A stretch of 33,623 bases of DNA from Propioniciclava tarda (GTDB lineage Bacteria; Actinomycetota; Actinomycetes; Propionibacteriales; Propionibacteriaceae), in the NCBI RefSeq assembly GCF_900182665.1, contig NZ_FXTL01000024.1:1-33623 (forward strand), read 5' to 3'. Of this stretch, positions 12,162 through 17,035 are shown piece after piece. A program made the position numbers and the translations under genes. The notes under the pieces are model-generated. The model did no database searches and was not told the DNA's origin. It saw only the letters and a program-made list of their open reading frames with translations. The stretch's first letter is position 1. Every line of letters starts with the position of its first letter.

Positions 12162-12195
12162 CGTACGAGGCGCTGAGGGCGGCCGCTGGCGAGAG

Positions 12196-12252
12196 TTATC
12201 CACAGATTTCGCGCGGATGACAGAAATCGGGCCCCGGCGCCCAATGTGTGGG
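12196..12252 (+). promoter_or_regulatory. 57-bp upstream element, copy A (before ssd-tadABC)
   Basis: This aligns without gaps to copy B at 15884-15940 (about 45 of 57 identical). Shared blocks are TTATCCACAGATTTCG, AGAAATCGG and CGCCCAATGTGTGGG. TTATCCACA equals the classic DnaA box. GATTTC and GAAATC form an inverted repeat 12 bases apart. TGACAG and CAATGT, 18 bases apart, could be a weak -35/-10 pair, with the GTG at 12254 seven bases after the latter. Function is inferred from its repeated position before two pilus units. Confidence 0.6.
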
Positions 12253-12253
12253 C

Positions 12254-13297
12254 GTGAAGACAGCTCGATTCGTCCTGCTCACGCGGGAAGAGGCCATTTC
12301 GGACGCCGTCGGCGCGGCCGCGGCCGCCCACGGGGTGGAGGTCGAGGTGCTGGCCTCGGCGGACGCCGCCCTGAGTTCGTGGTCGTCCGCGGACGTCGTG
12401 CTCGTGGGCGGCGACCAGGCCGCGGCGCTGGCGTCCCATGGGCCCAAGGAGCGGACGGGCGTGTATCTGGTCGGGGGCGATCCGGCGCAACTGGGGCGCT
12501 GGTCGGTGCCGCTGGCCGGACGGGTCATCGTGCTGCCGGAGGGGCTCGCCGCCTTGTCGGCCGTGCTCGCCGAGGACCGAGGGCTCGGTGCGCCGGTGGT
12601 GGCCGTCGTGGGTGGATCGGGCGGCATCGGCGCCTCGACGGTCGCGGCGGGCCTCGCGGTCAGCGCGCGGCGTCGTGGGCTGACCGCGGCTCTGGTCGAC
12701 CTGGATCCGGTGGGCGGTGGCGTCGACCTGCTGCTGGGCGCCGAACGGACGCCGGGCTGGCGTTGGCCCGATCTGCTCGGGGCGCGAGGGGAGGTCACCG
12801 ATGTGCGCCGGTTCCTGCCGCAGGTGGACGGCCTCACGGTGGTGTCGATGGGACGCCCCGTCCGGGGTGGTCCTGCGGGCGAGGTGCCCTCGGGGGAGTC
12901 GATCAAGGCGGTGCTCGGGGCGCTGGGCCGACATCACGATCTGGTGGTCGCGGACGTGGGGCGGGTGCCGATCGCCGGCGCGCGTCCGGTCGTGGGGCGC
13001 TGCCGGATGAGCCTGGTGGTCACCGGGACGGGGGTCCGATCGGTGGCGGCGACCGCGTCCGTGCTGGGGGCCGTCGAACTGGCTGCGCCGGCTTTGGTGG
13101 TGCGGCAGCAGGGCGGCAGCAGGGTCCCGGCCGACGTGATCGGGCGGGCGCTCGGTCTGGCGGTGGCCGGGGTGCTGCGCGAGGACAAGGCATTGCGGCG
13201 CGGCGGCGAGGTGGGGGAGCCGCCCGGACGCGCGGGCCGCGGGCGGTGGCAGCGGGCGATAGGGCGCCTGCTCGATGGGCTGGCGGTGAAGTCGTGA
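12254..13297 (+). CDS. ssd: Ssd / CpaE-like MinD-family protein of the Tad cluster
   Basis: A 347-residue homologue of the actinobacterial CpaE-like proteins in helicase/secretion neighbourhoods (mycobacterial Ssd, Rv3660c). An N-terminal receiver-like region (about 1-110) precedes a MinD/ParA-like domain with VVAVVGGSGGIGASTVAAGLAV-type motif I, LVDLDPVGGG and LVVADVGRVP. The deviant Walker A lacks its lysines (GGSGGIGAST), so ATP turnover is doubtful. CpaE/TadZ proteins place the pilus machine at the pole, and Ssd has been linked to septum regulation. I choose GTG 12254, since GTG 12248 lies inside the conserved element. No Shine-Dalgarno is seen, consistent with a leaderless message. The stop overlaps the tadA GTG. 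Confidence 0.82.
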   Translation: MKTARFVLLTREEAISDAVGAAAAAHGVEVEVLASADAALSSWSSADVVLVGGDQAAALASHGPKERTGVYLVGGDPAQLGRWSVPLAGRVIVLPEGLAALSAVLAEDRGLGAPVVAVVGGSGGIGASTVAAGLAVSARRRGLTAALVDLDPVGGGVDLLLGAERTPGWRWPDLLGARGEVTDVRRFLPQVDGLTVVSMGRPVRGGPAGEVPSGESIKAVLGALGRHHDLVVADVGRVPIAGARPVVGRCRMSLVVTGTGVRSVAATASVLGAVELAAPALVVRQQGGSRVPADVIGRALGLAVAGVLREDKALRRGGEVGEPPGRAGRGRWQRAIGRLLDGLAVKS

Positions 13298-14433
13298 CGG
13301 TCGATCTCGTGCGGGTGCGCGAGCGGCTGAGCGCGCAGGGGCAACAGGCCGAGCCTGCCGCGGTCGCAGCCGCGCTCGAGTGGCTCGGGTACCTGGTGAG
13401 TGACGCGTCCGTGCTGGCCACGCTGGCCGAACTGCGGCGGGAGAGCCGCGGCGCGGGCCTGCTGGACGACTTGCTGGCGCTGCCTGGGGTGACCGACGTC
13501 GTGGTCAACGGGCCAGAGGAGGTGTTCGTTGATCGGGGGGAGGGGCTCGTGCCGGCGGGCGTCCGGTTCAACTCCGACGAGGACGTGCGCCGGCTCGCGG
13601 TCCGGCTGGCCGCCCGCGTGGGGCGGCGGCTGGACGATGGGCGTCCGTTCGTGGACGCTCGGCTGCCGGACGGCACCCGGGTCCACGCCGTGCTGGGCTG
13701 CCTGGCCGATCCGGGCACGTGCATCTCCTTGCGCGTCCCGTCGCGGGTGCGGCTCACGCTGGACGACTGGGAGGCGTCCGGATCGGTGACTGCGGTCGGA
13801 CGCGAGCTGCTCGCCGGCCTGATCGAGCGCAAGCGGGCCTTCCTCGTGGCGGGCGGCACCGGGTCGGGCAAGACCACGCTGCTGGCGTCCATGCTGGGGC
13901 TGGCGCCGCCGACCGACCGGCTCGTCATCGTGGAGGACTCCCGAGAGCTGAACCCCGACCACCCGCACTGCGTTCGGCTGGAGGCGCGTCCGGCCAACGC
14001 CGAAGGGGCCGGGGCGGTGACGCTCACCGATCTGGTGCGTCAGGCGCTGCGGATGCGTCCGGACCGGCTCATCGTGGGCGAGGTCCGCGGGGCCGAGCTG
14101 GTCGATCTGCTGGGCGCGCTGAACACCGGCCACGAGGGCGGCTGCGGCACGGTGCACGCGAACTCGACGGAGGCGGTCCCCGCTCGACTAGAGGCGTTGG
14201 GGGCGCTCGGGGGACTCGGCCGGGCGGCGGTGCATGCTCAGGCGGCGGCGGCGCTGGACGCCTGCCTCCAGGTGAAGCGCGCCACCGACGGACGGCGCTA
14301 CCTGGCCGAGATCGCCGTGCTGGAGGCCGGTGGCGACGGCCTGGTGCGGGCGTGCGCGGCGGCGTCCTTCGACGAGTCCGGACGCCTCCGGCGCGAGCCG
14401 TCCTTCGCGCGCCTCGAACGGCTGGTGGCCTGA
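13294..14433 (+). CDS. tadA: TadA/CpaF secretion ATPase
   Basis: This 379-residue hexameric motor drives Flp pilus assembly at the inner face of the membrane. It has the type II/IV secretion ATPase motifs: Walker [10 protein letters not shown] (187-195), Asp box [11 protein letters not shown], Walker [10 protein letters not shown] (258-266) and His box [12 protein letters not shown] (279-290). The N-terminal domain carries [20 protein letters not shown], typical of CpaF. The start GTG at 13294 overlaps the ssd stop by 4 bases; a much longer frame upstream is a GC-driven shadow of ssd. It is followed by tadB with a one-base overlap. Confidence 0.92.
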
Positions 14434-15230
14434 TGCTGTCGGCGTTGGCGGCGGGGCTGTTCGTGCTTGTCGCCTGGGAGTGCGCCGACCGGCGGCTGCT
14501 GCGCCGACTGGTCCCGGTGGCGCGGGAGCGTCCGGCCAGGCGGGCCCCGCGGCTGGGCTGGCTGGTGGTGGCTGCGCTGGCCGCCGGTGTCGTGTTGGCC
14601 GGTCTACTCGATGGACGCCGCGGCGCGGCCCTGGCGCTCGCGTCCGGGTGCGGACTGGCTGGGGCGCTCGGACTGCATCGCCGAGGCGTCCGACGAAAAC
14701 GTGCGTCCGCCGAGCAGGCTTCGGTGGCTCGCGCGGGCGAAGCACTGTCGGGACTGCTGGCGGTCGGCGCGGTGCCGGCCGTGGCGCTGGTTTCGGTTGC
14801 TGCGGAGCATCCGGTGTTGGCCGAGGCGGCCGCCGAACAGGAGATCGGCGGCGACGTGTGTTCGGCTCTGCGCCGCTCTGCCGGCCTGCCGGGGCGGCAA
14901 GGCCTGGCCGAGTTGGCGGCGGCTTGGCAGATCTCGGTGACGACGGGGGCATCCATGGCTCGCTCGATCGACGCGATCGCCGAGGAACTCCACCGGCGCC
15001 AGGAACTGGCGTCGACCGTGGCCGTCGAGCTCGCGGCCAGCCGCGCGGCGTCCCGGCTGCTCGCCGTGTTGCCGGTCGCCGGCATCGGTCTGGGCTACGG
15101 CTTCGGGGGCGATCCGGTCGCCTTTCTGACCGGAAACCCGCTGGGCCAGGCGTGCCTGGTGGTGGCGGTCACCCTCGCGGTGGCCGGACTGTGGTGGACC
15201 GACGCGCTCGCAGATCGGGCGAGCCGATGA
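14433..15230 (+). CDS. tadB: TadB-like pilus inner-membrane platform protein
   Basis: A 265-residue membrane protein with two hydrophobic segments near the N-terminus (1-17, 45-62). A central cytoplasmic T2SSF-like helical domain includes LAELAAAWQISVTTGASMARSIDAIAEEL. Two C-terminal membrane segments follow (about 209-228 and 240-258). This corresponds to the Rv3658c-type TadB, which pairs with TadC to form the platform that TadA turns. The ATG overlaps the tadA TGA by one base (14433), and the stop overlaps the tadC ATG by 4. Confidence 0.85.
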   Translation: MLSALAAGLFVLVAWECADRRLLRRLVPVARERPARRAPRLGWLVVAALAAGVVLAGLLDGRRGAALALASGCGLAGALGLHRRGVRRKRASAEQASVARAGEALSGLLAVGAVPAVALVSVAAEHPVLAEAAAEQEIGGDVCSALRRSAGLPGRQGLAELAAAWQISVTTGASMARSIDAIAEELHRRQELASTVAVELAASRAASRLLAVLPVAGIGLGYGFGGDPVAFLTGNPLGQACLVVAVTLAVAGLWWTDALADRASR

Positions 15231-15853
15231 CGTCGGCGCTGACGATGGAAGCCGTCGTCGCCGCGTTCGCGACCGCGGTCGCAGTGTGGCTGTGGCTGGG
15301 GGAGAACCCTCTTGACCGGCTGCGACCGGCCAGGGCTGCACCCGCGTGGTGGCCGTTTCGGCAAGGTAGGCCGCGGATCGAGTTCGGGACGCGGCGCGCC
15401 GCCGCTCGGGCGCAAGCCATCGCCGACGGCGTCCCGGTGGTGTGCGACCTGTTGGCGGTCTGCGTGGAGGCGGGTCGGCCAGCCCGGATTGCTTTGCGGG
15501 TCGTGGCCGAGGCGTCCGAGGAGCCCACCCGAGGCATTCTGCTGGGCATCAGCCACCAGATCGAGCTGGGCGTGGATGAGCTGCACGCCTGGCAGGCGCT
15601 GGCCAAGGAGCCCGGCTACCGAGGGGTGGCCAGGGATATGGCGCGGTCGGTGCGGTCCGGGGTGGCGTTGGGCGACCTGCTGCGCGGTCACGCTGCGCAG
15701 GCGCGGGCGTCCGCTGAGACGGCGGCTCGAGAGCGGGCGCGCCAGGTGGCCGTCAGCGGCGTGCTGCCGCTCGTGACCTGCTTCCTGCCCGCCTTCCTGC
15801 TGGTCGGTGTCGTGCCGATCTTCGGCGGAATCATCGGGCGCCTGCTCGGCTGA
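15227..15853 (+). CDS. tadC: TadC-like pilus inner-membrane platform protein
   Basis: A 208-residue protein with an N-terminal membrane segment (about 8-24) and a T2SSF domain (VCDLLAVCVEAG, then LGISHQIELGVDELHAW). A hydrophobic C-terminus (about 174-208, VSGVLPLVTCFLPAFLLVGVVPIF) completes it. It matches the Rv3657c-type TadC. The ATG at 15227 overlaps the tadB stop by 4 bases. The unit ssd-tadA-tadB-tadC ends here; a 129-base gap with copy B of the upstream element separates it from flp. Confidence 0.85.
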   Translation: MTSALTMEAVVAAFATAVAVWLWLGENPLDRLRPARAAPAWWPFRQGRPRIEFGTRRAAARAQAIADGVPVVCDLLAVCVEAGRPARIALRVVAEASEEPTRGILLGISHQIELGVDELHAWQALAKEPGYRGVARDMARSVRSGVALGDLLRGHAAQARASAETAARERARQVAVSGVLPLVTCFLPAFLLVGVVPIFGGIIGRLLG

Positions 15854-15883
15854 GGAGCGTGTGGGAGCGGCGCGATCGGGGAC

Positions 15884-15940
15884 TTATCCACAGATTTCGT
15901 CGACGTGAAAGAAATCGGCCCTTTCCGCCCAATGTGTGGG
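15884..15940 (+). promoter_or_regulatory. 57-bp upstream element, copy B (before flp)
   Basis: This is the paralogue of 12196-12252. TTATCCACA is at 15884-15892, the GATTTC/GAAATC inverted repeat follows, and the copy ends in CGCCCAATGTGTGGG. It lies 42 bases upstream of the flp ATG, leaving room for a leader with AAGGAG. The blocks kept in both copies suggest protein contacts; the differing stretches lie between them. Confidence 0.6.
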
Positions 15941-15982
15941 TGCGTCGCAAGAGGGCGGCGTCGAGGAACACAAGGAGTAGTC

Positions 15983-16207
15983 ATGAGCAAGCAAGTCGAG
16001 CCGAGCGTCGTCACCCTCGACCGCCCGCAGCGCCTGAGCCTGCGCGAACGAGGCATGGTCACGATCGAGTACGCCATCGGTGCCGTGTTGGTGATCGTCC
16101 TGGTGGGCGTGATCATCGCGGCGATCCAGCAGGGCTGGTTCGGGGACCTGGTCCACAGCCTGGTCGCCCTGCTGATGCAGGCGATCCCCCGGGCGCTGGG
16201 CGCCTGA
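15983..16207 (+). CDS. flp: Flp-type pilin (DUF4244 family)
   Basis: A 74-residue prepilin, the presumed major subunit of the Tad pilus. A polar leader ends in RERG; cleavage is expected after G24, giving a mature N-terminus MVTIEYAIGAVLVIVLVGVII with the conserved E29-Y30. A short amphipathic tail follows. It matches the actinobacterial DUF4244 proteins (Rv3656c type). The ATG at 15983 is set by AAGGAG at 15972-15977; a frame extending to 15905 runs into the upstream element and is rejected. Its own promoter region and a downstream hairpin suggest expression separate from tadABC. No TadV prepilin peptidase lies in the window. Confidence 0.88.
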   Translation: MSKQVEPSVVTLDRPQRLSLRERGMVTIEYAIGAVLVIVLVGVIIAAIQQGWFGDLVHSLVALLMQAIPRALGA

Positions 16208-16268: not shown

Positions 16269-16604
16269 GTGAGGCAGGCGCAGCGAGGCATGGTGACCGT
16301 TGAGCTGGCGCTCGTCAGCGTGCTCGTTGCCGGGGCCGTCGCCCTGGGCTGCTGGGTGCTGACGCAACTGTTCATCTTCGATCAATGCCAGATCACGGCC
16401 AATGAGGTGGCCCGCCAGGCCGCCCGAGGAGACGCGCAGGCCACCCAGCGTGCGCGGATGGACGCTCCGCCCGGGGCCGTTGTCGTCGTGACCGACGCCG
16501 CGGGCGCAACCACCGTCAAGGTGCGGTTCACTCCGGTGCTGCTGGGCGTCCCCATGACGTCGTGGGATGCGACCGCGGTGGTGCTCAACGAGGCGCGTCC
16601 GTGA
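16269..16604 (+). CDS. tadE: TadE-like minor pilin
   Basis: A 111-residue pseudopilin (Rv3655c type). The N-terminus RGMVTVELALVSVLVAGAVALG repeats the prepilin cleavage pattern seen in Flp (G before M, glutamate at +5), so the same peptidase should process both. The rest is a small extracytoplasmic domain with one cysteine in FDQCQI. The GTG at 16269 follows GAGAGGAG. Its TGA overlaps the next GTG (16601-16604). Confidence 0.85.
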   Translation: MRQAQRGMVTVELALVSVLVAGAVALGCWVLTQLFIFDQCQITANEVARQAARGDAQATQRARMDAPPGAVVVVTDAAGATTVKVRFTPVLLGVPMTSWDATAVVLNEARP

Positions 16605-17035
16605 CGGCGAGTCACCGGCAGGGTGAGCCCCTGGCGTCCGAGGCGAGCCGGGGGAACCGAGCTTCGATCGGACGCCGCGAGCGCGGCCTGGCGACGTGGC
16701 TGGCAGCCGCGGGGCTCGTCGTGCTCGGGGGTGTGCTTGCCGCTGGAGTGGTGGCGCTCATCCTGCAGACCAATGCCCATCGGGTGCAGGGTGCCGCGGA
16801 CCTCGTCGCGATCACCGCGGCGCAGGCCAAGAGCCTGGGCACCGGCGAGCCATGTGCAGCCGCGAGCCGAGCCGCCGCGGCGTCCGACGTGGAGGTGGTC
16901 GACTGTTCGGTCGGGGGTGACGAGTTGGAGTTCGTCGTCACCGTGTCGGTGCGCGGCGGGAACCGAGCCGTGCTGCTCGGCTTTCCCGTGCCGGCCGAAG
17001 CGAGCGCCCATGCAGGGGTGAGGCGCGGCGGATGA
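16601..17035 (+). CDS. TadE-like protein of the helicase/secretion neighbourhood
   Basis: A 144-residue protein of the Rv3654c kind. A basic N-terminus (GRRERGLATW) leads into one membrane segment (about 31-52), then HRVQGAADLVAITAAQA, typical of TadE/TadG-like minor subunits, and a C-terminal beta-rich part with two cysteines (CAAAS, VDCSV). GTG 16601 overlaps the tadE stop by 4 bases. It probably forms a minor pilus subunit or anchor with TadE. It closes the pilus operon; the next gene runs the other way. Confidence 0.78.
   Translation: MTASHRQGEPLASEASRGNRASIGRRERGLATWLAAAGLVVLGGVLAAGVVALILQTNAHRVQGAADLVAITAAQAKSLGTGEPCAAASRAAAASDVEVVDCSVGGDELEFVVTVSVRGGNRAVLLGFPVPAEASAHAGVRRGG

Follow-up and report, generated by a model that had tools for sequence, protein, structure and literature searches.

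The 57-bp element that stands in two copies in the tad locus of Propioniciclava tarda (contig NZ_FXTL01000024.1, whose 33,623 nucleotides are referred to below as the window) contains a short site with the core TCCACAG, which we call the com box. In the same genome this site precedes genes for DNA uptake and recombination as well. We conclude from sequence comparisons that the com box is probably where the activator of a regulon for competence and recombination binds, a reading to which we assign a probability of about 0.8. The shared promoter layout, the gene set behind it, and the conservation of the box, its orientation and its distance in relatives were computed directly.

The com box in the genome of P. 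tarda

The pattern TTDTCCACAG occurs at 18 sites in the genome, compared with four for the backwards pattern, and the longer pattern TCCACAG-N13-40-AATGTG has eight matches and none when read backwards. These eight strict matches precede ssd, flp, comEA, recA, a second ssb gene, yraN-comM, tag and an AbiEi_4 gene (contig C13). We assigned the genes downstream by their Pfam and NCBIfam matches; those following the 18 sites include comEA-comEC, yraN-comM-dprA, recA, the second ssb and radA, and further tag, AbiEi-like genes and two genes for SAF-domain (CpaB-like) proteins, one of which heads a second tad-like operon. Matches above the cut-off were obtained for the ComEA repeat, the ComEC N-terminal domain, YraN, Mg_chelatase (ComM-type), DprA, RecA, SSB, RadA, SAF and T2SSE, and the tag gene was assigned through Pfam. 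One and the same site is therefore found before pilus, DNA-uptake and strand-processing genes (ssd, flp, comEA, yraN-comM-dprA, recA and the second ssb). A tRNA gene was looked for between the box on contig C7 and the dCTP-deaminase gene there (DCD match), and none was found.

When 12 promoters of P. tarda are aligned on their -10-like hexamer, they share, completely or in part, the arrangement GAG-TTATCCACAG-ATTT ... GTGAC/GAAATCGG ... CCAATGTG. The box itself has the form [GA(G/C)]TT(A/G)TCCACAG in this genome, and elsewhere in the class it is reduced down to the TCCACAG core.

Promoter layout and a proposed mechanism

Among the eight strict matches the length from the box to AATGTG is 50 in six, 40 in one and 31 in one, that is, it changes in steps of 9-10 bp. 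Some 43 bp separate the box from the -10 hexamer downstream of it, a distance kept exactly in six promoters of P. tarda, and the box mostly points in one direction. From this fixed distance, the orientation and the 9-10 bp steps we infer that a bound activator would touch RNA polymerase. Distances from the box to the start codon, in which a 47-50 class stands out, were discarded as an argument for helical phasing: ssd and comEA of P. tarda and locus L057 possess a second in-frame start at 55-56, so that this class is at least partly a matter of start-codon choice. Retained as a basis for phasing were the 31/40/50 box-to-AATGTG lengths of P. tarda, together with three comEA loci at 68-69.

In ssd and comEA the start codon closely follows the -10-like word, as it does in leaderless transcripts, and TANNNT directly precedes the start in 30 of the 47 boxed comEA promoters. 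The flp gene has a ribosome-binding site, AAGGAG, and a longer leader; for this reason its transcript is probably not leaderless.

Each 57-bp copy would accordingly be composed of a housekeeping-type (sigma-A) promoter and a single upstream activator site, the com box. A sequence-specific activator would bind about 43 bp upstream of the -10 element, in a fixed orientation at most promoters, and would recruit RNA polymerase to promoters whose -10 elements are poor. Its binding is predicted to switch on jointly the Tad pilus (ssd-tadABC and flp), the DNA channel (comEA-comEC) and genes whose products protect or recombine the incoming strands (the dprA operon, the second ssb, recA and probably radA). 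The genes under the com box would then form a competence regulon.

Conservation of the box in relatives

Position and orientation of the box are conserved in relatives. We examined 30 genomes comprising P. tarda itself and members of its genus, family and order; for comEA, 55 loci were drawn from these relatives and from a class-wide sample of 30 loci listed from 295 genomes, 29 of which were new since L055 had already been included. Left out of the comEA counts were L059, which is boxed but has an unclear anchor, and L082-L084, which encode other HHH proteins. TCCACA stands 43-72 nt upstream of an in-frame ssd start in 23 of 30 loci (backwards word: 1 of 30) and at the same place before comEA in 47 of 55 (backwards word: 2 of 55). 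The ratio of forward to reverse strand is 29:6 for ssd, with a downstream background of 3 in 64 kb, and 59:12 for comEA, with a background of 5 in 79 kb. Upstream of recA, where the partial loci L316 and L318 were left out, TCCACAG was found in 26 of 28 loci (forward to reverse 29:1; background 1 in 126 kb of strand).

A further 80 TadA loci came from genome assemblies. We hand-picked 28 of them as actinobacterial or likely so and with a TadA identity of at least 50%, plus L160 at 44%, and dropped L154 and L159 because of too little upstream DNA. TCCACAG occurs upstream of ssd in 24 of the 26 chosen loci, with 36 sites forward and 5 reverse; the rate downstream, 38 in 278 kb of strand, would give about 3.6 on each strand. 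The boxed loci belong to Propionibacteriaceae, Nocardioides, Streptomyces, Kitasatospora, Blastococcus, Geodermatophilus, Nonomuraea, Corynebacterium, Dietzia and others, and in 18 of the 24 the start codon of a long open reading frame (ORF) follows 40-74 nt after the box. The other 52 TadA loci (37-47% identity) are mostly from other phyla, at least nine being actinobacterial by title; among the 50 with enough upstream DNA, two had the box in the same upstream interval (L170 and L182) and none carried it in reverse.

Two relatives, G008 and G252, contain 45 box sites between them, and we read all 11 of G008 and 19 of the 34 of G252. At four of the sites read in G008 we found ssd, a flp-like ORF, comEA and a SAF gene; the sites read in G252 yielded seven genes, namely comEA, recA, ssb, a DUF4192 gene and three nuclease-like genes. 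In some genomes of the class-wide comEA sample (L229 and L242) TCCACAC or TCCACAA stands where the box is expected, so that its base 10 can vary by clade.

The recA promoters

The -26 motif of PafBC promoters is close to TTGTCRGTG-N8-TANNNT. A looser form, TGTC[GAC]G-N10-12-TANNNT, which we take to be a PafBC-type motif, fits 27 of the 28 recA promoters (loci L289-L317), and TCCACA stands 43-47 nt upstream of TANNNT in 24 of these 27. The coexistence of this motif with the com box suggests that recA is jointly controlled by DNA damage and competence. Com promoters and mycobacterial PafBC (RecA-NDp, -26 element) promoters are alike in the proposed combination of a sigma-A polymerase with an activator, and at about the same place the com promoters have AATCGG/GATTCGG; in ssd and flp, AAATCGG replaces TGTCGG and lies one base farther from the -10. 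An activator related to PafBC might conceivably act at the com promoters, too. They differ in the com box, which is situated further upstream; the excerpt of PMC11804915 available to us, in which PafBC is described as activated by single-stranded DNA and as acting through sigma adaptation, mentions no such upstream box.

The two copies in the window

The copies, at 12196-12252 and 15884-15940, align without gaps and are identical at 45 of 57 positions, the identity being concentrated in the blocks that the first-pass annotation had singled out. Also as described there, the first copy precedes ssd-tadABC and the second flp; Ssd and TadA were identified with NCBIfam, and the flp-like ORF is followed by genes for an Rv3655c-type TadE protein and an Rv3654c-type protein. 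The exact sequence TTATCCACA, the consensus DnaA box, occurs twice in the window, once per copy; the expectation of about 0.03 occurrences quoted in the annotation agrees with our simple base-composition estimate. If up to one mismatch is allowed, the window still has two matches, compared with a mean of 0.92 in shuffled sequences and at least two in 24 of 100 shuffles, and at this tolerance the count is weak evidence. The 15-mer TTATCCACAGATTTC is present in the whole 2.97-Mb assembly only at the two copies, and its backwards pattern is absent. It is the element as a whole, and not the 9-mer alone, that exceeds chance. Exact copies of TTATCCACAGATTTC were found in 5 of the 30 genomes, P. tarda included, and the four foreign matches lie away from ssd. 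The exact 15-mer is local, and the shorter core of the box is the conserved part.

The view that the blocks of identity reflect function, of the kind expected from protein contacts, and not a recent copy was upheld, and the box core is kept before the tad genes of relatives; the annotation had itself named a lack of conservation at this place as refuting it, and conservation was found for the core and not for the exact 15-mer. The element does precede both tad units, but a scope confined to tad proved too narrow, as comEA-comEC, the dprA operon, recA and ssb have it as well. A pair restricted to the tad locus is ruled out by the identical layout at other sites of the genome. A second, dimeric regulator had been proposed to bind a GATTTC/GAAATC inverted repeat. 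This operator was rejected: the arm pair is missing from at least the comEA, yraN-comM, tag, C7 and SAF promoters of P. tarda, in which both arms never occur together. Several relatives carry GTGAC..GATTCGG in this region instead, which looks like promoter sequence.

Recent duplication within the tad locus, to which the 45/57 identity and the spacing of 3.7 kb might point, would leave unexplained why the unlinked comEA, recA, second ssb and AbiEi_4 promoters are in the same register and why the box occurs in distant genera too; we regard such an origin as hardly credible.

Candidate readers of the box

The first-pass annotation had linked the element to DnaA, an established activator and repressor (PMC8203912), and in an extended form of this proposal DnaA-ATP, or the state of replication, would drive tad, com and recombination genes as a whole regulon. 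Several features of the box make DnaA a serious candidate. TTATCCACA is a consensus DnaA box; the 9-mer is TTATNCACA or close to it, with TT(A/G)TCCACA in 11 of 12 promoters of P. tarda and TGATCCACA in one, most of these sites having been found with that very pattern. The same genomes have many boxes with the TCCACA core, which was also the search word, at oriC/dnaA, and TTGTCCACAG lies upstream of dnaA itself. Several sites bound by DnaA in Escherichia coli read gagTTATCCACAg, close to the GAG-TTATCCACAG seen here, and flanks of the GAG-box-G kind are similar to those of several DnaA sites in E. coli (PMC11317965). In some relatives two boxes lie 17-42 bp apart. The leading TT of the com boxes (T1 in 45 of 70, T2 in 49 of 70) is no weaker than that of the oriC/dnaA boxes (49 and 67 of 105), which are equally variable; loss of the leading TT was therefore dropped as an argument against DnaA.

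What separates the two kinds of box is base 10 and, in P. tarda, the 5' flank, in a comparison blurred by the weak boxes of the oriC set. When sites were found without G in the pattern, base 10 was G in 23 of 23 ssd boxes and 43 of 47 comEA boxes, as opposed to 55 of 105 oriC/dnaA boxes of the same family, and TTNTCCACA accounts for 51 of 76 in the dnaA loci. In the genome of P. tarda, TTDTCCACA is in excess only before G (18 versus 4 backwards; non-G, 4 versus 6 backwards). Chromatin immunoprecipitation followed by sequencing has shown that E. coli DnaA prefers pairs of boxes 2-3 bp apart (PMC11317965). We scored the best partner 9-mer at this spacing for every promoter; a partner with at least five of nine consensus matches was present in 1 of 12 promoters of P. 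tarda, about 10% being expected by chance, in contrast to 11 of 13 E. coli partners. The 9-mer and its E. coli-like flanks thus agree with the DnaA link, whereas the missing partner box and a base 10 unlike that of oriC do not. We consider DnaA rather unlikely as the reader, and favour a dedicated activator over it. A small HTH_17 (excisionase/MerR-like) protein similar to Mlut_14660 of Micrococcus luteus might be this activator. In that organism mutations that alter comEA/EC expression by raising the activity of a reporter are clustered most densely at Mlut_14660 and at the divergently oriented SAF/CpaB-CpaE operon (PMC8467076), and in P. tarda two SAF genes adjoin com boxes. However, none of the seven HTH_17 matches in its genome (six above the cut-off) adjoins either box-bearing SAF gene, the nearest being about 5 kb from one of them. 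We hold a reader of this type to be distinctly unlikely. Finally, the promoters might be ordinary constitutive sigma-A promoters in which TCCACAG serves as an unusual upstream promoter element without a dedicated regulator, and a fixed distance to the -10 would be expected of such an element too; yet the full layout stands before a coherent gene set, and the distance steps of 9-10 bp, seen in three lengths only, fit a bound protein better than a core element. We judge this explanation to be very improbable.

A separate observation concerns genomes G024 and G027, in which three TTATCCACA sites lie within about 130 bp (L004 and L005), far from dnaA in both; they possibly represent a DnaA-box cluster outside oriC.

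Points that weigh against an activator site of a competence regulon

Several findings count against the reading of the com box as an activator site of competence and recombination genes. Among the 18 TTDTCCACAG sites of P. tarda, three or more (L048, L050 and L051) have no sensible gene downstream, another lies at dnaA, and the SAF gene on contig C6 has the box reversed. The G at base 10 is not absolute, because the non-G site G000:C1:317678 (TTATCCACAA) is part of a promoter that shows the whole layout and precedes an AbiEi-like gene; besides, C or A is found at this base in 4 of the 47 comEA boxes. Seven of the 30 ssd loci and eight of the 55 comEA loci are without TCCACA at the expected place, and TCCACAG was not found before recA in L296 and L303 or before ssd in L160 and L178. 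For six of the 24 boxed assembly loci (L136, L137, L138, L142, L146 and L150, four of them Streptomyces, a genus with six loci in this set) no long-ORF start was found 40-74 nt after the box. Exact TTATCCACAGATTTC is absent from all 12 other genomes of the genus. TANNNT directly precedes the start in none of the 23 boxed ssd promoters, so that the leaderless reading of ssd depends on weak -10-like words; such poor words fit activator-dependent promoters, but nowhere is the promoter reading weaker. In the freshwater bacterium Rhodoluna lacicola, the rise of tad and com genes after the light is switched off agrees with such a regulon, but comEA is an exception to the shared induction, and the genes of a second freshwater strain are uncoordinated (PMC8591293).

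Comparison with known competence systems

Competence boxes of other bacteria include the ComK box of Bacillus, the cin-box of Streptococcus (ComX/sigma-X) and the CRP-S site of gamma-proteobacteria, which is used by CRP with Sxy/TfoX. As in these systems, a single short site ahead of the genes for pilus, uptake and recombination would switch them together; unlike them, the pilus is of the Tad/Flp type, and the com box is not known to match those sites in sequence. In its working the com box would resemble the competence boxes of other phyla, but with such a sequence it cannot be filed under any of them. DnaA-regulated promoters share with the com promoters the consensus 9-mer, some E. coli flanks and a leading TT as variable as at oriC, and differ from them with respect to the single box at a fixed promoter distance (in P. 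tarda), the near-constant G10 and the uptake and recombination targets.

In keeping with the proposed regulon, Flp pili are required for transformation of M. luteus, which lacks most homologues of the ComK cascade (PMC4322843). With the regulation of comEA/EC in M. luteus (Mlut_14660, SAF/CpaB-CpaE; (p)ppGpp and cell density), our findings have in common the genes, the phylum and a Flp-dependent uptake; unlike here, no motif is described in the accessible part of a 2026 study, which states that the competence regulatory cascade of M. luteus is still to be identified (PMC12849477). We found no description of a TCCACAG box in competence promoters among the papers listed from the openly licensed literature of PubMed Central.

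Features of the tad locus

The coordinates of the locus are compiled in Table 1. In relative G008 the ORF corresponding to the flp-like one matches DUF4244. A DECH-type helicase gene (TIGR03817; 17172-19634, minus strand) faces the tad cluster, which is a known helicase/secretion neighbourhood.

Table 1. Positions in the window of promoter elements and genes of the tad locus.
Feature	Position	Strand	Remark
com box of the ssd-tadABC promoter, GAG-TTATCCACAG-ATTTC	12193..12210	+	
conserved mid block TGACAGAAATCGG	12218..12230	+	putative -35/-26 region; GTGAC..GATTCGG in several relatives
-10-like CAATGT	12242..12247	+	6 nt upstream of GTG 12254; putative leaderless start
ssd, CpaE-like	12254..13297	+	TIGR03815, 224.6 bits; GTG 12254 preferred over ORF-finder GTG 12248
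tadA, ATPase	13294..14433	+	TIGR03819, 471 bits; GTG start 13294 overlaps ssd stop
tadB-like, membrane protein	14433..15230	+	named by position; no NCBIfam match
tadC-like, membrane protein	15227..15853	+	named by position; no NCBIfam match
com box of the flp promoter, GAC-TTATCCACAG-ATTTC	15881..15898	+	
conserved mid block GTGAAAGAAATCGG	15905..15918	+	putative -35/-26 region
-10-like CAATGT of the flp promoter	15930..15935	+	
AAGGAG, ribosome-binding site of flp	15972..15977	+	
flp-like pilin ORF	15983..16207	+	74 aa; named by position and sequence; no NCBIfam match
TadE-type minor pilin	16269..16604	+	Rv3655c family
TadE-like protein	16601..17035	+	Rv3654c-type

Further genes behind the box

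AbiEi/restriction endonuclease (REase)-like proteins of about 210-350 amino acids recur after com boxes. In P. tarda they are encoded at L251:566-1495, L286:1572-2549 and L124:3405-4454, and their counterparts in G252 are found at L259, L269 and L280. L251 matches AbiEi_4, and L286, which is 39% identical to L124, falls just below the cut-off of that family; L269 matches DUF559, L259 and L269 match MTES_1575 below the cut-off, and L280 and L259 share 51% identity. These proteins are possibly competence-linked nucleases or regulators.

The second tad-like operon of P. tarda (L115:4193-8836, in the region of G000:C1:31841) consists of the SAF gene, an ATPase-like ORF, a T2SSE/TadA-like gene and two more ORFs, with a com box upstream. 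The reading frame of comM (L118:6084-7700, G000:C3) appears to shift in mid-gene from frame 0 to frame 2, which would mean a broken gene or an assembly error. About 50 nt after a TTGTCCACAG site begins a gene for a RecQ-like helicase (L125:2343-4721, G000:C6:50774; DEAD, Helicase_C and a weak RecQ_Zn_bind match), possibly a further member of the regulon. Another TTGTCCACAG site is followed by a gene for a 310-amino-acid protein (L127:3103-4035, G000:C4:157212) that seems similar on visual inspection but has no Pfam match and no similarity to L251. In G008, two related long ORFs (L256 and L270, the former without a Pfam match) show TTATCCACAG or TTGTCCACAG at about 59-62 nt upstream of an ATG, together with a TATTCT-like -10.

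Implications for DNA uptake in Actinomycetes

A box with a fixed place before pilus, channel and recombination genes makes it directly testable how DNA uptake is turned on in actinobacteria. It predicts that AbiEi/REase-like proteins, Tag and DUF4192 are new regulon members and that tad/com genes are under regulation in genera such as Streptomyces. In its broadest form the proposal is that of an undescribed, class-wide competence and recombination regulon of the Actinomycetes, marked by TCCACAG at a distance of about 43 bp from the downstream -10 and served by one dedicated activator other than DnaA; this wider claim we put forward tentatively, at somewhat less than even odds. Were it true, the regulon would include genera not usually thought to be transformable, for instance Streptomyces, and the AbiEi/REase-like proteins would be new competence-linked factors. 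Were DnaA the reader instead, horizontal gene transfer would be tied to the replication cycle across a class.

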